NCBI GenBank assembly: GCA_020347645.1
Contig: CP070736.1
Span: 253,144-317,143 of the forward strand
DNA from: Methanobacteriota archaeon
GTDB lineage: Archaea > Thermoplasmatota > Thermoplasmata > UBA10834
DNA length: 64,000 bases
Direction: 5' to 3'
Of the stretch, positions 16,305 through 25,864 are shown piece after piece. A model generated the notes under the pieces. It did no database searches. It saw nothing but the letters and a program-made list of their open reading frames with translations, and had not been told where the DNA came from. The position numbers and the translations under genes were made by a program. How positions within the stretch are numbered: the first letter of the stretch is position 1; each line of letters starts with the position of its first letter.

Positions 16305-16700
16305 ATGACAATTCTGAAGAAGAAGAACTTCCCTTCGTCGCAGGAATCAGAAGGTAGACAGCATGCCAGTGCTGAGCAATACATAGACCTTAGCGAGATG
16401 ACTTTCGAGGACGAGCACATCCTCGGGGGAGATGATGCGAGCACGCAGGTGAAGGTCGGTGAGTTGTTCAGGTATGAGGACCTGTCACTGTTGACAAGCG
16501 AAGTCTATGCGGGCAATGCGGTGATACTCGATTTCACCTCGATAGCCAACGATGACCTCACAATGAAGAGGATCACATCGGAACTCAAGAGCGTAGCCCG
16601 GGATGTGAACGGCGACGTGGCTGGCGTAGGCAAGAATCTTCTGATGGTTACGCCGCAGGGTATGAAGATCGACCGAAACAAGATAAAGGGCGGGCTTTAG
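16305..16700 (+). CDS. sepF: Archaeal SepF cell-division protein
   Basis: A 131-residue protein that anchors FtsZ to the membrane in archaea without FtsA. The N-terminal MTILKKKNF can form the amphipathic membrane helix, a disordered acidic linker follows, and the C-terminal half (about 50-131) is the SepF fold: KVGELFRYEDLSLLTSEVYAGNAVILDFT, then SELKSVARDVNGDVAGVG and ending LLMVTPQGMKID. Length and order match archaeal SepF. FtsZ is not in the window. The KaiC-like ATPase gene converges on it 55 bases downstream. Confidence 0.92.
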   Translation: MTILKKKNFPSSQESEGRQHASAEQYIDLSEMTFEDEHILGGDDASTQVKVGELFRYEDLSLLTSEVYAGNAVILDFTSIANDDLTMKRITSELKSVARDVNGDVAGVGKNLLMVTPQGMKIDRNKIKGGL

Positions 16701-16755: not shown

Positions 16756-17592
16756 TCATTCCGCGATCGGAGGAGTGGCCATGAACTGACCGTCTCTGAA
16801 GATCAACGTCAGATATCCATGGTGGATCTTCGAGTGGCGCATCTTGACCGCCCTTATCCTCAGCTGTACGTCCGACTCTCCAACATCCACGAACTTGAGG
16901 AGGATCGTACCGTCGGCAAGATAATCCTCGTGGAACGGTCCGAAGGCACTTCCGTTTTGCTGAGTCTCCGATATAAGGAAGGTCGTCACGCCCAACCTCT
17001 TGAGGAAGCCGAAGAAGTGAAACAGTTCCTGTCTCGGGCTCTGGATGTGCGTGAGCGAGTACACCGCGGTAAGCGAGTCGATCACGATTAGTTCGACTCC
17101 CTCGTTTTCAACCTTCTTTCTCAGGTACTCCTTCAAGATCTTAAACCAGTCCCGGCCTATGTCTGCGTCGGTGTGCTCGAGCCTCAGCTTTCCGATGTCC
17201 ACGATGAAGAACTTGTTTTCGTCGATATCGCCGAAGCCCAAACGGTCCATTCCTTCCAATAGGCTCTCCTTGCTCTCTTCTATGGAGACGTAGAGGGCGC
17301 TCAAATCATTCTTCCTTACGTTGTTGTACAAGAGGTTCAGCGCGATAGAGGATTTCATCGTACCCGGTGTACCTGCGAGAAGAACGACGTGCCCTTTGCG
17401 CACTCCTCCGCTTATCTTGCTGTCGAAGCCGTCAATATACGTAAGTATCCTGTCTTCGCTAGTCGTTGCACTATGTTTCAGGGAGAGTCCTCCTTGGGGA
17501 GCACCGGTACTATCATCGTAGAGTCTTAATAGTGTTTGCCACGAACCCCACGTTGATGCGGTTTCGCATCGCAAAGGTATTTCTATTGGCAT
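16756..17592 (-). CDS. KaiC-like RecA-fold ATPase
   Basis: Single KaiC domain. Walker A is AGTPGTMKSSIALN, followed by ALYVSIEESKE and Walker B LIVIDSLTAVYSL; TTFLISETQQ is the sensor strand. Archaeal single-domain KaiC proteins act in signalling or regulation, some beside archaellum or SepF genes. The start is uncertain. The conserved domain begins only near position 17480, where a perfect GGAGG sits seven bases before an in-frame CTG (17479-17481); the ordinary starts at 17592 (ATG) and 17574 (TTG) have no ribosome site and add a stretch unlike the family. I give the conservative ATG coordinates. With CTG the protein would be 241 residues. Confidence 0.82.
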   Translation of the reverse strand: MPIEIPLRCETASTWGSWQTLLRLYDDSTGAPQGGLSLKHSATTSEDRILTYIDGFDSKISGGVRKGHVVLLAGTPGTMKSSIALNLLYNNVRKNDLSALYVSIEESKESLLEGMDRLGFGDIDENKFFIVDIGKLRLEHTDADIGRDWFKILKEYLRKKVENEGVELIVIDSLTAVYSLTHIQSPRQELFHFFGFLKRLGVTTFLISETQQNGSAFGPFHEDYLADGTILLKFVDVGESDVQLRIRAVKMRHSKIHHGYLTLIFRDGQFMATPPIAE

Positions 17593-17649
17593 CAGGAAGG
17601 CCAAAGCGCCGCTCTGAGGAGGGCAGAGATTGCCTTCTCGTCCTGAAGC

Positions 17650-17656
17650 CTTATAT
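17650..17656 (+). promoter_or_regulatory. TATA box before HD phosphohydrolase gene
   Basis: CTTATATGC at about 17649-17657. Its distance to the GTG at 17681 (about 28 bases) suits a leaderless transcript and helps decide the start. Confidence 0.55.
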
Positions 17657-17680
17657 GCGGCGATGCTCTCTACGACCTTC

Positions 17681-18991
17681 GTGGACGAATACAAAGTCAT
17701 CAGAGACTCAATTCACGGAAGCGTACGCGTCGGCTCTCCCTACCTACCACTAATTGAGTCTAACGAGCTGCAGCGATTGCACGGGATCCACCAACTAGGC
17801 CTTGCGAGCCTTGTCTATCCAGGCGCCAACCACACACGGCTGGAGCATTCCCTTGGCGCGTTCGCCGTCGCCGGCAGGATGAGCACATCCCTTCAGCTGG
17901 AAGAAGACGAGGAGGCGCTCGTACGTTGCGCAGCCCTGCTCCACGACATAGGACACCTTCCATATTCCCACACCTTCGAGATGGTGCTCCATGAGCGATT
18001 CGGCATCGACCATGTCGAAATATCGAAGCGCCTCATCATGGGAGATGATTCTGTCGTCTCCGAAGATGAGAGACGAGCGCTCGGAGAGGAGATTAGAGCC
18101 GTGGACTCTCTCGAGCGCCAAGGCATAGAACCCAAGGTCGTCGCAGCGCTGCTCAGCGGTTCGGCAGAAACTCAACTGGAGCAGCTGACCCTGAACGGTC
18201 ACAAAGAGCAGGCTCATTTCAACGGTCGAAGGTATCTTGGACAGATGATAAGTGGTCCTGTGGATGTCGACCAGCTTGACTATCTGACGCGGGACGCACA
18301 CTACACGGGCGTCGCCTATGGGGTCATCGACGTGGATAGGCTATTGGACACTGTGGGAGTCTTCAACGGTGACTTGGTCGTGGAGAAGGGAGGGGCGAGT
18401 GCTGTGGAGGGGATGTTGGTGGCGAGGGCACTGATGTTCTCGACCGTCTACTTTCATAAGACCATTAGGATCGCGGAGCTCATGCTGGCCAAGGCCGTCG
18501 AGCTTCTGGACTCTCGAGAAATAAAGGACCTGTTCAAGATGACCGATTCCAGCCTCTTGTCCCGCCTTTCTTCCGAAGGAGGATACTCGCAGGAGATAGC
18601 CACTCGGATCAAGTATCGTCGCCTCTTCAAGAAAGCCTATGCAGTGGCGAACGAGGATGTCGGAGACGACGGGTGGGAGGCAGTGGATGAGCTTGGCGAT
18701 TTCGACAAACGTAGGAGTCTGGAGGAAGACATAGCCGCCAGGGCCGGGATAGACCCCGGGCATGTGGTGATCGACGTGCCGTCGCATGAGCTGCCCGTCT
18801 CCGAGCCAAGGATGACCATGACGAACATACGCATCACGGACGGCGACAGAGTCAGGCTTCTGCCCAGCATGAGCACCATAGCACATTCGTTGCAGACGAG
18901 GCGAGTCCATGAATGGGCAATAATGGTCGCGTGTCCTACCGAGAATGCGGACAAAGTGGCAAGGGCGGCTAAGAAGGCTATCTCGATTTGA
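17681..18991 (+). CDS. HD-superfamily phosphohydrolase (dGTPase/SAMHD1-like)
   Basis: A 436-residue predicted metal-dependent nucleotide phosphohydrolase of the COG1078 type. It begins MDEYKVIRDSIHGSV, the usual N-terminal motif. The metal site is seen in HTRLEHSLG, LLHDIGHLPYSH (central HD) and later DQLDYLTRDAHYTG. Relatives hydrolyse dNTPs or act on other phosphate esters. I prefer the GTG at 17681 because a TATA box lies about 28 bases upstream and homologues start here; the ATG at 17663 would add six residues. The gene converges with rtcB, 19 bases apart. Confidence 0.9.
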   Translation: MDEYKVIRDSIHGSVRVGSPYLPLIESNELQRLHGIHQLGLASLVYPGANHTRLEHSLGAFAVAGRMSTSLQLEEDEEALVRCAALLHDIGHLPYSHTFEMVLHERFGIDHVEISKRLIMGDDSVVSEDERRALGEEIRAVDSLERQGIEPKVVAALLSGSAETQLEQLTLNGHKEQAHFNGRRYLGQMISGPVDVDQLDYLTRDAHYTGVAYGVIDVDRLLDTVGVFNGDLVVEKGGASAVEGMLVARALMFSTVYFHKTIRIAELMLAKAVELLDSREIKDLFKMTDSSLLSRLSSEGGYSQEIATRIKYRRLFKKAYAVANEDVGDDGWEAVDELGDFDKRRSLEEDIAARAGIDPGHVVIDVPSHELPVSEPRMTMTNIRITDGDRVRLLPSMSTIAHSLQTRRVHEWAIMVACPTENADKVARAAKKAISI

Positions 18992-20465: not shown

Positions 20466-20766
20466 GCAGGCTTCACCATGGCTTCTCAGGCTTACATTGC
20501 ATATTAAGGTTACCGACTGTTGAGCGCTGAGGCTCCCATCCGGTCCCGCTCGTGATCGGACGGGCCTGTTTCCCGACCATGCCTTGTATGGCAATCATCA
20601 TTGGAGGCTCTTCAACCCTTGGACGGAAATCGTGGACGACTGGACGCTGAGCCAGATATTTATATACGGATTGAGTGCAATAACTGTCTTCAACTGAGTC
20701 GGACACCTTTCCCAAGAACGACAGCGTGTGCTGACCTTCATCACTGAATCGAGAGGTGTGTGAAGT
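20466..20766. other. Divergent promoter region of rtcB and the zinc-ribbon membrane protein
   Basis: About 300 bases with no gene I can support. A strong TATA box (ATATTTATATAC, 20656-20667) points toward the plus-strand gene and would give it a leader near 75 bases. A weaker CTTAATATGC on the minus strand (about 20502-20512) could serve rtcB. A long minus-strand open frame here is a shadow running into the next gene. Confidence 0.6.
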
Positions 20767-23700
20767 TTGAAGACGGAATCCCTGTACTGTCCTCTTTGTG
20801 GCAACAAGGTCTCCGCGGACTCCGAGAGGTGTCCGTTTTGTTCAACGCGTCTCGAGACTGTTCTTACCAAGAGGGAAATGGATAAGGTCATAGAGAAACG
20901 ACTCATGCAGCGGCTGCAGTCGAAGCAAGCCAAGGAGGATTTCAAAGCTGCCGACACCCCTGCAGTAGGTTTGCCCGACGCCACGCTTTCATGCCCTTCC
21001 TGCGGCATGGACCTCGAAACAGGCATGGGGAAATGCCCTAGATGCGGCGTGCCTGTCGTGACAGACGAAGACATGTTTGAATGCCCCGAGTGCGGAGACC
21101 TCATTGCCTCCGGGGCGGCAAAATGCCCCAAATGCGGTGCAGGCTTCGAAGTTGAGAAGCATGAGGCAGAGGAGCCGTTGCTCGTCCCGCCCCCAGAACC
21201 TGAGACGGAAGCGCCAGGACCGATGAGGGAAGAGGATCTCGAAGAACCGCCACCTCCGGCGGAGGTCATCACCGCTGGTCCGATTGAGTCGCGGATGGCC
21301 GAACGCGGCATGGTGAATGGCACCGGCGCCGTGAATGGCACAGGACTCGTCAATGGAAACGGCATGGTGAACGGTACGGGGATGGCTAATGACACCAGAG
21401 GGGATGCGGAGATGCGTCGGCCACGTAGCCAACGATTCTCCGCGCTGACTCGATGGCCGTTCCTCGCAGTGCTGGTGGCCGTGCTCATCATACTCCCGAC
21501 TTTCATATACTTCGCGTATTATGCGAAGTCCGGAGCCTTCAACATAGATGGCGATTTCTCCGAATGGTCTGATATAGACACCTTTGGGGTGCGGGTATCT
21601 GCCGTTTCGGCACCGACAATAGACATAGAGGAGTGGTCCGCTCAGAGCGATTCCAACGATCTGTTCCTGTACGTCAAAACGACCGGAGACATCATGAGCA
21701 GCTCCGTTGTAGACAGTTTCTTCTTATTCGTCGATTCCGATGATTCGTCGTCCACTGGCTACTCCGTGGGATCTATGGGAGCTGACTACCTGCTTGAACT
21801 AGACGGATGGGACGGTTCGGTGCATTCGTCGTCGCTCATGAGCTACAGCTCGGGCGACGACGACCGCGACTGGAACTCATGGGCTCAGATAGGGTCGCTA
21901 TCCCATCGCATAGAGGGCGACCGAATAGAGGCGAAAGCGATTCTTCCTGCCGACCTAGGCACCTCGGCCAAGTACTTGCTGATGTCGCAGAACGAGCTTG
22001 AACACAGGACGATCAGCTACGAGACGCCTGCCAAGGGCGGGCTTTTGATAGTCGAACAGATCTCATTGGTGCCCGCTAGTGGCATACTCCCCAATGCCGC
22101 GGATGTGCCGATTCTCAGTCTGAAGCTCAGCTGTCAAGGCGAGGGGGGTACTATCGATTCTCTCGCGCTCACCACGCCTGGTGTCACGTTCTCGCCGCCA
22201 TTGGGGGATGGCTTTTCGATAAGTCCTGACGAAGCCCCCTACACCTTGCAGGTGAACGCGGACGTCAGCGCCAATGACAGCGGCGATTTCTACTCGATTT
22301 CATTGGCCATCGACGACTGCGAATGGTCGTTCGCTTCGGCCGAAATCATTGGATACGGAGCACGCGGGTATGTGAATACGACCCCAGACGGCATAGAAAT
22401 TGATGGAGCATTCGCCGATTGGAGTGGGCTTACGGTCGCAGACATAGACACGATTCCTGCAGAGAATATGAACATCGACATCGACGAAATCGCTTCGGCC
22501 AACGATACGCAATCGGCGTTCTTCTATGTTAGCGTCGAAGGCGAACTCTGTAGCGGGACTTACGTCCCCGCCCTAAAAGGGAAGCCGACGGGCACCGGGG
22601 GAGGAACTCCGGTGACGCCTCCGCGGAAGACCGGGGAGGATTATCTCAGGATATACATCGACTCTGACCTTTCAGCGGTCACCGGATATCCGCTGTCCAG
22701 TGCGACGGGCGCGATAGGCGCAGACCACTTGGTCGAAATCATCGGCCAGTTTGGCGATGTACTACCCCCGAAGCTCTACGAATACGACGGAACTTGGACC
22801 GAGATTGTCACAAGCATTGACATCGGAAAAGACCTGCAGCGGATCGAGATAGGTTTGCCGTCTGCAGCCCTCGCCGGCGCTGCGACCGTAGACTTCATCG
22901 TGGAAACCACTGATTGGCTGGACAGGTCTGATCTCGCGATGTACGACGGCGCGACAAGCGCCTTTGCTCTCGTCGCGGAAACGCGGGGATGGGTTATAGA
23001 TTCGTCCTCAACATCGGACTGGGCGACTGCTGCTTCTCACCAAAGGAAGCTCTTCTATGACGGTACAAACTTTTGGAGTTTCTACTGGGACGGTACAGAC
23101 ACGGTATACAAGAGCAGCTCAGACGGTGGAGGGACATGGAGCAGCGCCAATCAAGCCTTCGCGTCGTCTGGAGTCTACAAGACGAGCCTTTGGTACGACG
23201 AGACCAACAACCTCGTGTATATCGTTGGCGACACCGATGATAGCACACAGAACGTCCATATCCGTAGGGGGGTTGTGAGTCCATCGACTCCGGACATAAC
23301 CTGGGGCAGCGAAACCACGCACGCCATATCAGATCTCTCGATGGGCAACAAGGACGCGTTCATATGCAAGAATGCGACCGGCTATCTGTGGATCGTCTCT
23401 ATCTCACTTGACAGCGACAACCCATCGGACAAGTTCAATCTGGAGACTAGGCGCAGCACGTCACCTGATGATCTGAGTAATTGGGACGATGAAGGCGCCC
23501 TGCTTCCCGGCTCCGGGTCAGCGGACGGCTATAAAGCGGTCGTCGTCCCTGGCAAGATAGGCTCTGGAATCGATGTTTGGGCAGTATACGCCGTCGCTGG
23601 CGAGGTATTCGCGAGGGCCCATGACGGCGACGGTTGGGATGCTACCGCTACAACCCTTTACTCTGCGGGGGACAGCCCGGAAAATACGAATTCGGCACCT

Positions 23701-24222
23701 CCCTCGGCAGTGGTAGACGCCAACGGCGTAGTACATGTCGTCTACGGAACGGGGGATATGAACGGTGCGAACTGGGAAGGCCATATAGAATACACCTACA
23801 ACACTGGTTCGGGCTGGTCAAGCTCAATCAAGCTCAATGCTACGAACGATTACGCAAGAAGCTGTCCCACGATATCTCTCGACAATAACACCGGAAACGT
23901 GTACGCTATGTGGCTGCAGCATCAGTCAGGTTCGAAAGACTACGTCATCGTCAAGAAGAACGTGAGCGGAGCCTGGAGCTTCGTATCACTTCCGGCCAAC
24001 GACTACATCAAGAATCATCTGACCTCGGTGTACTCCGTCCCAGGCGAATCGTATATATGCATGCAATGGACCCAGAACACGACAGCGAACATAGAAGTCA
24101 TATTCGAGAGGATCCCGGAATTCTCCGACGTGGTGTTACCGGTCATGTTCATTCTGACGATATTCGCCGTCTACCGCATCAGAACGGGGAGGAGCGGCCG
24201 CCGACAAGTCGAAGACGAATGA
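20767..24222 (+). CDS. Membrane protein: three zinc ribbons inside, large beta domains outside, PEF-type tail
   Basis: An 1151-residue protein of unknown function. Residues 8-25, 76-93 and 106-123 are three CxxC zinc ribbons. Residues 180-210 repeat a hexapeptide of the type (M)VNGTG, and 231-252 is a membrane helix (LAVLVAVLIILPTFIYFAYY). Outside follow two CBM9/DOMON-like units that each open with IDGxFxDW/EW (259-267 and near 540), and from about 740 beta-propeller-like strands with SSDGGGTW and YDGTNFW motifs. The end has PEF, a second hydrophobic helix and a basic tail. So the ribbons are cytoplasmic and the bulk is extracellular. The start is TTG at 20767 after GAGAGGTGTG. Two further zinc-ribbon genes follow on the same strand. 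Confidence 0.8.
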   Translation: MKTESLYCPLCGNKVSADSERCPFCSTRLETVLTKREMDKVIEKRLMQRLQSKQAKEDFKAADTPAVGLPDATLSCPSCGMDLETGMGKCPRCGVPVVTDEDMFECPECGDLIASGAAKCPKCGAGFEVEKHEAEEPLLVPPPEPETEAPGPMREEDLEEPPPPAEVITAGPIESRMAERGMVNGTGAVNGTGLVNGNGMVNGTGMANDTRGDAEMRRPRSQRFSALTRWPFLAVLVAVLIILPTFIYFAYYAKSGAFNIDGDFSEWSDIDTFGVRVSAVSAPTIDIEEWSAQSDSNDLFLYVKTTGDIMSSSVVDSFFLFVDSDDSSSTGYSVGSMGADYLLELDGWDGSVHSSSLMSYSSGDDDRDWNSWAQIGSLSHRIEGDRIEAKAILPADLGTSAKYLLMSQNELEHRTISYETPAKGGLLIVEQISLVPASGILPNAADVPILSLKLSCQGEGGTIDSLALTTPGVTFSPPLGDGFSISPDEAPYTLQVNADVSANDSGDFYSISLAIDDCEWSFASAEIIGYGARGYVNTTPDGIEIDGAFADWSGLTVADIDTIPAENMNIDIDEIASANDTQSAFFYVSVEGELCSGTYVPALKGKPTGTGGGTPVTPPRKTGEDYLRIYIDSDLSAVTGYPLSSATGAIGADHLVEIIGQFGDVLPPKLYEYDGTWTEIVTSIDIGKDLQRIEIGLPSAALAGAATVDFIVETTDWLDRSDLAMYDGATSAFALVAETRGWVIDSSSTSDWATAASHQRKLFYDGTNFWSFYWDGTDTVYKSSSDGGGTWSSANQAFASSGVYKTSLWYDETNNLVYIVGDTDDSTQNVHIRRGVVSPSTPDITWGSETTHAISDLSMGNKDAFICKNATGYLWIVSISLDSDNPSDKFNLETRRSTSPDDLSNWDDEGALLPGSGSADGYKAVVVPGKIGSGIDVWAVYAVAGEVFARAHDGDGWDATATTLYSAGDSPENTNSAPPSAVVDANGVVHVVYGTGDMNGANWEGHIEYTYNTGSGWSSSIKLNATNDYARSCPTISLDNNTGNVYAMWLQHQSGSKDYVIVKKNVSGAWSFVSLPANDYIKNHLTSVYSVPGESYICMQWTQNTTANIEVIFERIPEFSDVVLPVMFILTIFAVYRIRTGRSGRRQVEDE

Positions 24223-24250
24223 GCCTCGCACCGTTATCCAGATTCCACAT

Positions 24251-24260
24251 TTTATATAAC
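24251..24260 (+). promoter_or_regulatory. TATA box before lysine-tailed zinc-ribbon gene
   Basis: TTTATATAAC, centred about 28 bases before the ATG at 24284; it indicates a leaderless mRNA and fixes the start, against an earlier in-frame codon at 24263. Confidence 0.65.
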
Positions 24261-24283
24261 AGTTGAACCATCCTCTTCATACG

Positions 24284-25015
24284 ATGGCAGAACGACAGAA
24301 GGAGATCTTCCTAAGCTGCTTCAAGTGTGGCCGGATCGTAAAGGCTGGCGATTCAGAATGCCCGAGATGCGGACTTCAGTTCGGCCCCGGCACGCTCTTC
24401 GAATGCCCGTTCTGCTCAGGCCTAGTATGGCGCAACGCCTCAAGTTGTTCTACCTGCGGCATCGACCTCACGGAATTCTCCCTCGGCGTCGAGAAGACTT
24501 TCGCAGGGTTCGACATGGATGAGTTTGTCGAGAACATCATCAACACGGAGTTGGAGCAGCTCAAGTCTATACAGAGAAGGGTCGGCTGCCCTGGATGCGG
24601 ACTGATGATACGGGGTGATGAGGTGAAATGCCCTCGTTGCGATCTGCCATTGGGAGAGGTTAGTGTCATCTGCCCGGTATGCGGTGAGAAGATGCAGCTC
24701 GAAGCCAAATCGTGCCCCAACTGCAGGGCGGAATTCGATGCGGCCGTAGAGCCCGTTGCAGAGACGGAAGCCGTTTCCGAGACATCCATGGATAAGGGCG
24801 AAGGGCTTGCCCCAACTGAGCATCCAATCGAGAAACGGCCATCAAAGGCTAAAAAACGGAAGAAGAAAGAGCCGCCCAGTGCCTTAAAGGCGAAGAAGAC
24901 TTTGAAGCGCAAGCCCGCCAAGAAGGCTCCTTCCAAGAAGCCGGCGAAGAAGAAGACATCGAAGAGCGGAGGCAGGAAGAAGACGACCACGAGGAAGGCC
25001 AGAAGCAAGAAGTGA
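24284..25015 (+). CDS. Zinc-ribbon protein with lysine-rich, histone-H1-like tail
   Basis: A 243-residue protein of unknown function. Residues about 10-200 hold five or six CxxC ribbon halves (FKCGRIVKAGDSECPRCG, CPFCSG...CSTCG, CPGCGLM...CPRCD, CPVCGEK...CPNCR). After an acidic linker, the last 55 residues are nearly all Lys, Pro, Ala, Ser and Arg (KRKPAKKAPSKKPAKKK type), a tail expected to bind DNA or RNA. It shares its ribbon type with the genes before and after it, suggesting duplication. The tail resembles the 70-residue lysine-rich protein at 34627-34839. Confidence 0.8.
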   Translation: MAERQKEIFLSCFKCGRIVKAGDSECPRCGLQFGPGTLFECPFCSGLVWRNASSCSTCGIDLTEFSLGVEKTFAGFDMDEFVENIINTELEQLKSIQRRVGCPGCGLMIRGDEVKCPRCDLPLGEVSVICPVCGEKMQLEAKSCPNCRAEFDAAVEPVAETEAVSETSMDKGEGLAPTEHPIEKRPSKAKKRKKKEPPSALKAKKTLKRKPAKKAPSKKPAKKKTSKSGGRKKTTTRKARSKK

Positions 25016-25095
25016 AGATATCGTCGGCTCCATTGCAGCTCGCCTGATGCCCTGCTCGGCAACCAATTAAATACTCGCATCATTATCTTAGCATT

Positions 25096-25452
25096 ATGGC
25101 CGATAAATCTCTGCCAGTGTTCGTATTGGCATGCGTAGAGTGCGGCAAGACAGTATCTGGAAACGAGGAAAAGTGCCCTCGCTGCGGAATTTCTTTCGAG
25201 GGCTTGGGTTTTGAATGTCCGTTCTGCGGCGGACATGTTTCCACGAATCAGCGCAGATGCGAGTCGTGCGGAACGGAGTTCGAAGTCTTCGCTTCTGAGG
25301 TGGCAGAGGCGTCGGCAATATCGCTGGACAGTGGGACGAGCATTTCCACGCCAGAACCAAAGGACAGCCTCGAGTACGAATGTCCTGCGTGCGGCAAATC
25401 TGTTGGCGAGGTGGACGACAAATGCCCGCACTGCGGAGCCAACTTCACATAA
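25096..25452 (+). CDS. Small zinc-ribbon protein
   Basis: A 118-residue protein with three zinc-ribbon modules: CVECGKTVSGNEEKCPRCG, CPFCGGHVSTNQRRCESCG and, after an acidic linker, CPACGKSVGEVDDKCPHCG. No other domain is present. It is the third member of the local zinc-ribbon series; its first module aligns with the first module of the 24284 protein (both FxCxxCG...GxExCPRCG), so they are likely paralogues. TTAAATAC near 25066-25075 lies 20-30 bases before the ATG, fitting a leaderless transcript. tRNA-His converges just downstream. Confidence 0.8.
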   Translation: MADKSLPVFVLACVECGKTVSGNEEKCPRCGISFEGLGFECPFCGGHVSTNQRRCESCGTEFEVFASEVAEASAISLDSGTSISTPEPKDSLEYECPACGKSVGEVDDKCPHCGANFT

Positions 25453-25615: not shown

Positions 25616-25864
25616 TTGTCGCATCATACGACGTGGGTTGAAGCTGACCAGTACTTTCACCAGCCTCCCCGGGATGCGTACTTCACGAAGAATGGCATGG
25701 ACTGCTCGTGTGCGACCATGTCTGAGCGAGATACCCTAAACGGTAGGAGAAGCGAAGCGCTCCCGGTATGTAGTGAATGTAGCGGACCCGTAGCGAATCT
25801 TTCGGGGTGCTTGACGTGTGTGGTGTGCGGCGACTCGGCCTGCGAAGGGGTTTGCCAGCAGTGA
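25616..25864 (+). CDS. Small zinc-ribbon protein resembling the NrdJ C-terminal tail
   Basis: Up to 82 residues. The last 35 residues read PVCSECSGPVANLSGCLTC then VVCGDSACEG, the same cysteine pattern as the zinc/redox tail of the NrdJ reductase (CPECGSMVEYVEGCIVC then RTCGYSRC). No other domain is present. A free-standing copy of such a tail could bind zinc or shuttle electrons to a reductase, but this is inference from pattern only. The start is unclear: TTG at 25616 gives 82 residues, ATG at 25697 gives 55 and ATG at 25718 gives 48; only the part after 25718 looks conserved. Confidence 0.55.
   Translation: MSHHTTWVEADQYFHQPPRDAYFTKNGMDCSCATMSERDTLNGRRSEALPVCSECSGPVANLSGCLTCVVCGDSACEGVCQQ

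Follow-up and report, generated by a model that had tools for sequence, protein, structure and literature searches.

Membrane proteins of the TcaA/YvbJ type carry a short cytosolic zinc ribbon at their N-terminus. TcaA itself has been described as a zinc-ribbon domain protein (PMC10611510), and PEF-CTERM-type signals are known to be laid out as a motif, a helix and a basic cluster (PMC3237569). The window analysed here, a stretch of 64,000 nucleotides, belongs to a 1.42-Mb single-contig MAG that is 65% complete (G000:C1:253144-317143) and includes three zinc-ribbon genes, P1, P2 and P3, which the original prediction had read as a cassette linking an outside ligand to DNA or RNA. The larger finding proved to be not this cassette but the family to which P1 belongs, together with the Asn-Gly repeat that its members carry.

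The locus

The three zinc-ribbon genes do lie in a row as predicted, with all three reading frames open and intact, conserved as proteins and kept in the same order throughout the taxonomic family. The genes at the site are:

20767 to 24222, + strand: P1, a single-pass surface protein of 1151 residues; orthologues in the family are 43-69% identical
24284 to 25015, + strand: P2, 243 residues, with four ribbons, a helix, an acidic linker and a Lys tail
25096 to 25452, + strand: P3, 118 residues, with three ribbons, the N-terminal pair of which groups with P2
25479 to 25552, - strand: tRNA-His, directly downstream of P3 and kept as the next gene, in the sister family too

All three proteins exceed the gathering cut-off of the Pfam double zinc ribbon profile DZR (PF12773), with P1 scoring 36, P2 39.3 and P3 41.6 bits against 27.3. 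A small reading frame of 82 residues with two CxxC motifs, conserved in genus g1, is present between tRNA-His and OTC (25616-25864).

Architecture of P1

P1 starts with a TTG behind the GAGGTG that ends its leader, and comprises three ribbons (six CxxC motifs), a transmembrane helix at residues ~230-251, an ectodomain of ~860 residues (~252-1115) and a second hydrophobic helix at ~1116-1140. Its parts are:

20779 to 20850, + strand: zinc ribbon 1 (Pfam Zn_Ribbon_1)
20983 to 21147, + strand: zinc ribbons 2 and 3 (Pfam DZR, 36 bits, cut-off 27.3)
21307 to 21384, + strand: Asn-Gly repeat, residues 181-206 (VNGTGA VNGTGL VNGNGM VNGTGM), disordered, on the cytosolic side, pLDDT ~25
21454 to 21519, + strand: transmembrane helix 1, 74% identity
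21526 to 22065, + strand: CBM9-like unit 1 (profile match E 1.1e-61, pLDDT ~90)
22381 to 22968, + strand: CBM9-like unit 2 (found with the unit 1 profile, E 3.5e-24)
22984 to 24081, + strand: sialidase-type (Asp-box) propeller (Foldseek to GH/sialidase propellers of the PDB)
24112 to 24195, + strand: PEF-CTERM-like tail, consisting of IPEFS, a hydrophobic helix and a basic cluster, conserved in orthologues

The membrane helix and the two CBM9/DOMON-like units of the original prediction were thus borne out, and since one profile matches both units they are related to each other. The Asn-Gly repeat, the propeller, the PEF-CTERM-like tail and the downstream tRNA-His were not part of that prediction. 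The ectodomain has a confident AlphaFold model, with blocks mostly at 80-95, and Foldseek matched residues ~740-1105 to sialidase/GH propellers (E 7e-10 to 1e-6, TMt ~0.6); the Asp box of this propeller reads SSSDGGGTW. The unit in the window matched no Pfam family, CBM9_1 (PF06452) included, and of 54 relatives three matched CBM9_1 weakly, the best with E 1.4e-4. Profile searches of the PDB found nothing significant with the CBM9-like unit, and with P1 returned other zinc-ribbon and zinc-finger proteins. Since the beta-sandwich units are CBM9-like solely through the weak matches of their relatives, we can only infer that P1 binds glycans. The ligand of the two sandwiches and the propeller on the outside would probably be a glycan or a glycoprotein.

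At the C-terminus, the IPEFS motif, the helix and the basic tail are kept in orthologues, and the PEF-CTERM model TIGR03024 scored 15.2 bits on P1, below its cut-off of 23. The same genome has an exosortase/archaeosortase-family gene (TIGR04178, 39.6 bits, cut-off 23; G000:C1:1250617), which is a candidate partner, and an exosortase-family gene was found in 15 of 20 relatives. The P1 end appears to resemble an archaeosortase signal and may be processed as such.

Among P1 orthologues, the segments of highest mean identity are the Asn-Gly repeat (77%) and the first transmembrane helix (74%), with ~50% in both the ribbons (non-Cys) and the ectodomain. One orthologue (L129 7505-10951, in G010) is interrupted by an in-frame TAG beside intact P2 and P3, for which sequencing error, decay or recoding are possible explanations. 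Another genome, G006, has a second, C-terminally shortened P1-like gene (L147 4309-7152; 68% identical over 876 residues), which has no P2 or P3 beside it and is closer to the P1 of the window than is the syntenic P1 of G006 itself.

The P1 family and its Asn-Gly repeat

Two ectodomain peptides were used to scan 84,980 species, each represented by a single genome, and this gave 78 loci (L165-L242), all in Thermoplasmatota-type MAGs as far as these are named. The loci were picked by the ectodomain peptides and not by the repeat. At least three NG dipeptides were present in the 120 residues before the first unit in 61 of the 64 members with a clear transmembrane helix ahead of that unit, where the composition of the ectodomain would lead one to expect about 0.7, and under a stricter ectodomain signature the repeat exceeded composition shuffles in 54 of 58 members. 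With a profile of the first unit the family was recovered from 20 of 293 genomes across the phylum, other classes included. Fifteen further loci (L275-L289), mostly from other classes, contained 7-45 NG dipeptides in 11 cases, three in one and none in one, the remaining two not being readable in frame.

The repeat is built of hexamers (NGxG) or tetramers (TNGL) and typically stands some 15 residues ahead of the membrane helix. In most members the codons differ between units, and it is therefore the protein on which selection acts; DNA slippage alone was rejected as the origin of the repeat on the same grounds, while recent slippage is likely in one member, L121. Lys and Arg are more numerous before than after the first transmembrane helix in 56 of 63 relatives. 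This positive-inside count places the repeat on the cytosolic side and makes an N-inside topology probable, in keeping with the predicted cytoplasmic position of the ribbons. N-glycosylation was rejected as the function of the repeat, given its position on the inner side and the many units (NGL, NGN, NGR) that are not sequons.

The ribbons are optional, as 23 of 64 members have no CxxC in the 120 residues before the first unit. Relatives have, beside or in place of them, SAP, HhH (5 members) or TPR modules detected with Pfam, or KaiC-like domains read from the sequence, and many members have the repeat alone without a cytosolic domain. In one receptor relative (L195 2359-5187) the cytosolic part combines several SAP repeats (SAP E 1.6e-13) with zinc ribbons. 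In three others (L213 3384-9227, L238 3202-7632 and L239 3568-9033) the cytosolic part starts with what reads in sequence as a KaiC/RadB-like ATPase domain, and TPR, one ribbon and the TNG repeat follow. The constant parts of the family are the cytosolic Asn-Gly repeat, one membrane helix and the CBM9-like ectodomains, to which P1 adds the sialidase-fold propeller and the PEF-CTERM-like tail. There are three members in this genome and about ten matches in some others, and P1-type proteins stand alone in most genomes.

A literature search of an open library found no description of the Asn-Gly repeat or of ribbon receptors. The P1 family is apparently an undescribed, phylum-wide family of surface proteins, and the repeat is the new and unexplained part of the finding; it also provides a simple sequence tag by which further members can be found. 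We propose that P1 would be a cell-surface receptor or adhesin with its N-terminus in the cytosol, in which the flexible repeat might tether the ribbons to the single membrane helix and the ribbons would be an optional part on which a partner in the cytosol could dock. It could alternatively be argued that the P1 family consists of one-component regulators tethered at the membrane by the Asn-Gly repeat, with the cytosolic modules themselves contacting nucleic acid. The N-inside topology and the ribbons, SAP, HhH and KaiC-like or TPR domains at the cytosolic ends of relatives would be consistent with this, but many members have only the repeat, zinc ribbons and TPRs more often bind protein, and no promoter targets are known, so that we regard such regulators as rather unlikely.

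P2, P3 and the relationships of the ribbons

P2 is composed of the following parts:

24305 to 24469, + strand: ribbons 1-2, 85% non-Cys identity among orthologues
24515 to 24568, + strand: conserved helix between the ribbon pairs (AlphaFold helix 78-95)
24575 to 24739, + strand: ribbons 3-4, 73% non-Cys identity
24851 to 25012, + strand: lysine-rich, disordered tail, present in all orthologues but fast-evolving and only 34% identical

The likeness of the P2 tail to that of histone H1, which the original prediction had drawn, holds for the composition of the tail but not for the globular part, which consists of four zinc ribbons and contains no winged-helix domain. Between genera the P2 core is about as conserved as RtcB, and by conservation P2 would behave like a housekeeping protein and P1 like a surface protein. 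Order-conserved and slowly evolving, P2 would most likely bind nucleic acid through its four ribbons and lysine tail. No match to the histone fold (PF00808) was found in 21 genomes of the class (G000-G026 set), and P2 may stand in for histones there, but against such a replacement Alba is present in 18 of the 21. Viral contigs contained no P2 relative, and a viral origin was rejected for this reason.

A profile search of the PDB with P2 gave nothing significant, the nearest entries being the ribbons of Rpo12 and Nop10. These matches, not significant as they are, would agree with P2 and P3 being ribosome- or RNA-polymerase-associated ribbons that have nothing to do with P1, and with P1 being purely structural, either S-layer-associated or an adhesin, with a cytosolic part that is only an anchor; the lectin/GH-like ectodomain and PEF-like tail of P1 would also suit this role. 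Anchoring alone would hardly call for cytosolic modules as varied and elaborate as those of the family, and we hold a purely structural role to be doubtful.

In a tree of ribbon pairs, which is built on 66 columns and weak in places, the P3 pair grouped with P2 (92/85), and P3 probably arose by partial tandem duplication of P2. The P1 ribbons branched apart from those of P2 and P3. Genomes of the family-level clade f1 also contain, elsewhere in the genome, a second stand-alone paralogue, P2b (L158, L159, L263-L273), which has the four ribbons and helix of P2 and a conserved short basic end, RRKLKAK. P2b grouped with the N-termini of most of the five-ribbon receptor paralogues (87/97), and P2-like four-ribbon modules are found fused to membrane receptors elsewhere. 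The four-ribbon module therefore exists both free (P2, P2b) and fused to receptors, and this is the part of the cassette idea that survives. A more speculative generalisation, which is conjecture rather than expectation on our part, would place P1 in an undescribed class of single-pass receptors found across the Thermoplasmatota. These would join a surface-glycan-binding ectodomain, through the Asn-Gly repeat, to cytosolic parts that can be exchanged for one another (zinc ribbons, SAP, HhH, TPR or KaiC-like ATPase) and would function as one-component signal transducers, and stand-alone relatives of the cytosolic part, such as P2, would serve the same pathway by acting on nucleic acid. If true, this would amount to a lineage-wide surface-sensing or adhesion repertoire in a phylum with little-known envelope biology.

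Promoters and gene neighbourhood

Each of the three genes is preceded by a conserved TATA box:

20659 to 20666, + strand: TATA box of P1 (TTTATATA), ~100 nt before the TTG start, conserved in the upstream regions of 10 orthologues
24251 to 24258, + strand: TATA box of P2, an A/T run being present upstream of 17 of 18 orthologues
25066 to 25073, + strand: TATA box of P3 (ATTAAATA), an A/T run being present upstream of 16 of 17 orthologues

By comparison of orthologues, the boxes of P2 and P3 lie ~25-35 nt upstream of the genes, and since the P2 box occupies 24251-24258, the ATG at 24284 is a better start for P2 than position 24263. A/T runs of at least 7, found at the above frequencies upstream of P2 and P3, occurred in 4% of random 70-mers from the same loci, but composition-matched shuffles contained them in 33%, so the case for promoters is carried mainly by how well the boxes are conserved in place and sequence, and less by the frequency of the runs. 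Three separate promoters would be the simplest reading.

The order P1-P2-P3-tRNA-His is the same throughout f1 wherever the contig allows, and so is the whole 18-kb stretch from ~13.5 to 32 kb, which is equally syntenic. The kept neighbours, named from their sequences, are a TPR protein, a SepF-like protein, a KaiC-like ATPase, an HD hydrolase, RtcB, OTC and a DHH protein. Among them, the KaiC-like ATPase gene lies at 16756-17700 on the - strand, and the SepF-like (cell-division) protein at 16305-16700 is 94% identical in the nearest relative. Since the whole neighbourhood is kept equally, adjacency says little about function, and was rejected as evidence of it. In the sister family f2 (L139 and L140, from genomes of 89% and 86% completeness) the order at the site is RtcB-P2-tRNA-His-OTC, without P1 and P3, and no P3 orthologue was found elsewhere in the f2 genomes. 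The separate TATA boxes and this sister family argue against an operon.

As originally conceived, P1 would sense an outside ligand, its ribbons would bind P3 and P2, and the signal would pass to DNA or RNA via the lysine tail. The order kept in the one family-level clade and the fusion of P2-like modules to receptor paralogues are in favour of such a cassette, but each gene has a conserved TATA box of its own, P2 occurs without P1 and P3 in the sister family, the P1 ribbons form a separate lineage (~50% conserved at non-Cys positions compared with 73-85% in P2), and functionally unrelated neighbours (RtcB, HD hydrolase, OTC, DHH) are equally syntenic. Furthermore, P1-type proteins are mostly alone and many are ribbon-less. 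A dedicated three-part system is hence very unlikely. Single scattering of the genes, named beforehand as evidence against a cassette, was observed outside the family and not within it; since P1 was never apart from P2 and P3 within f1, a link specific to this family is possible. It seems reasonably likely that P1, P2 and P3 are separately promoted genes with separate histories that have come to share one site, P1 being a surface receptor or adhesin, P2 a nucleic-acid binder and P3 a partial duplicate of P2.

Comparison with known systems

The zinc-ribbon membrane proteins of the TcaA/YvbJ type in Firmicutes (NF053815) resemble P1 in being membrane proteins with an N-terminal cytosolic ribbon, but P1 reaches only 15.3 bits against the cut-off of 550 and TcaA lacks the Asn-Gly repeat. 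Substrates of PEF-CTERM/archaeosortase systems share the tripartite end, and an exosortase-family gene is present in the genome, whereas P1 is below the TIGR03024 cut-off and has a cytosolic domain, not a signal peptide, at its N-terminus. With the BNR/Asp-box sialidase-like propellers (for example PDB 4irt and 5mum), the predicted likeness of residues ~740-1105 is limited to the fold, at only 10-13% identity. The CBM9_1 (PF06452) and Glucodextran_C (PF09985) profiles match the units of relatives weakly and those of the window not at all, and the P1 units probably form a family separate from both. Finally, P1, P2 and P3 are all double zinc ribbon proteins by the PF12773 cut-off, but the combination of four ribbons, helix and Lys tail that distinguishes P2 was found only in this taxonomic order.
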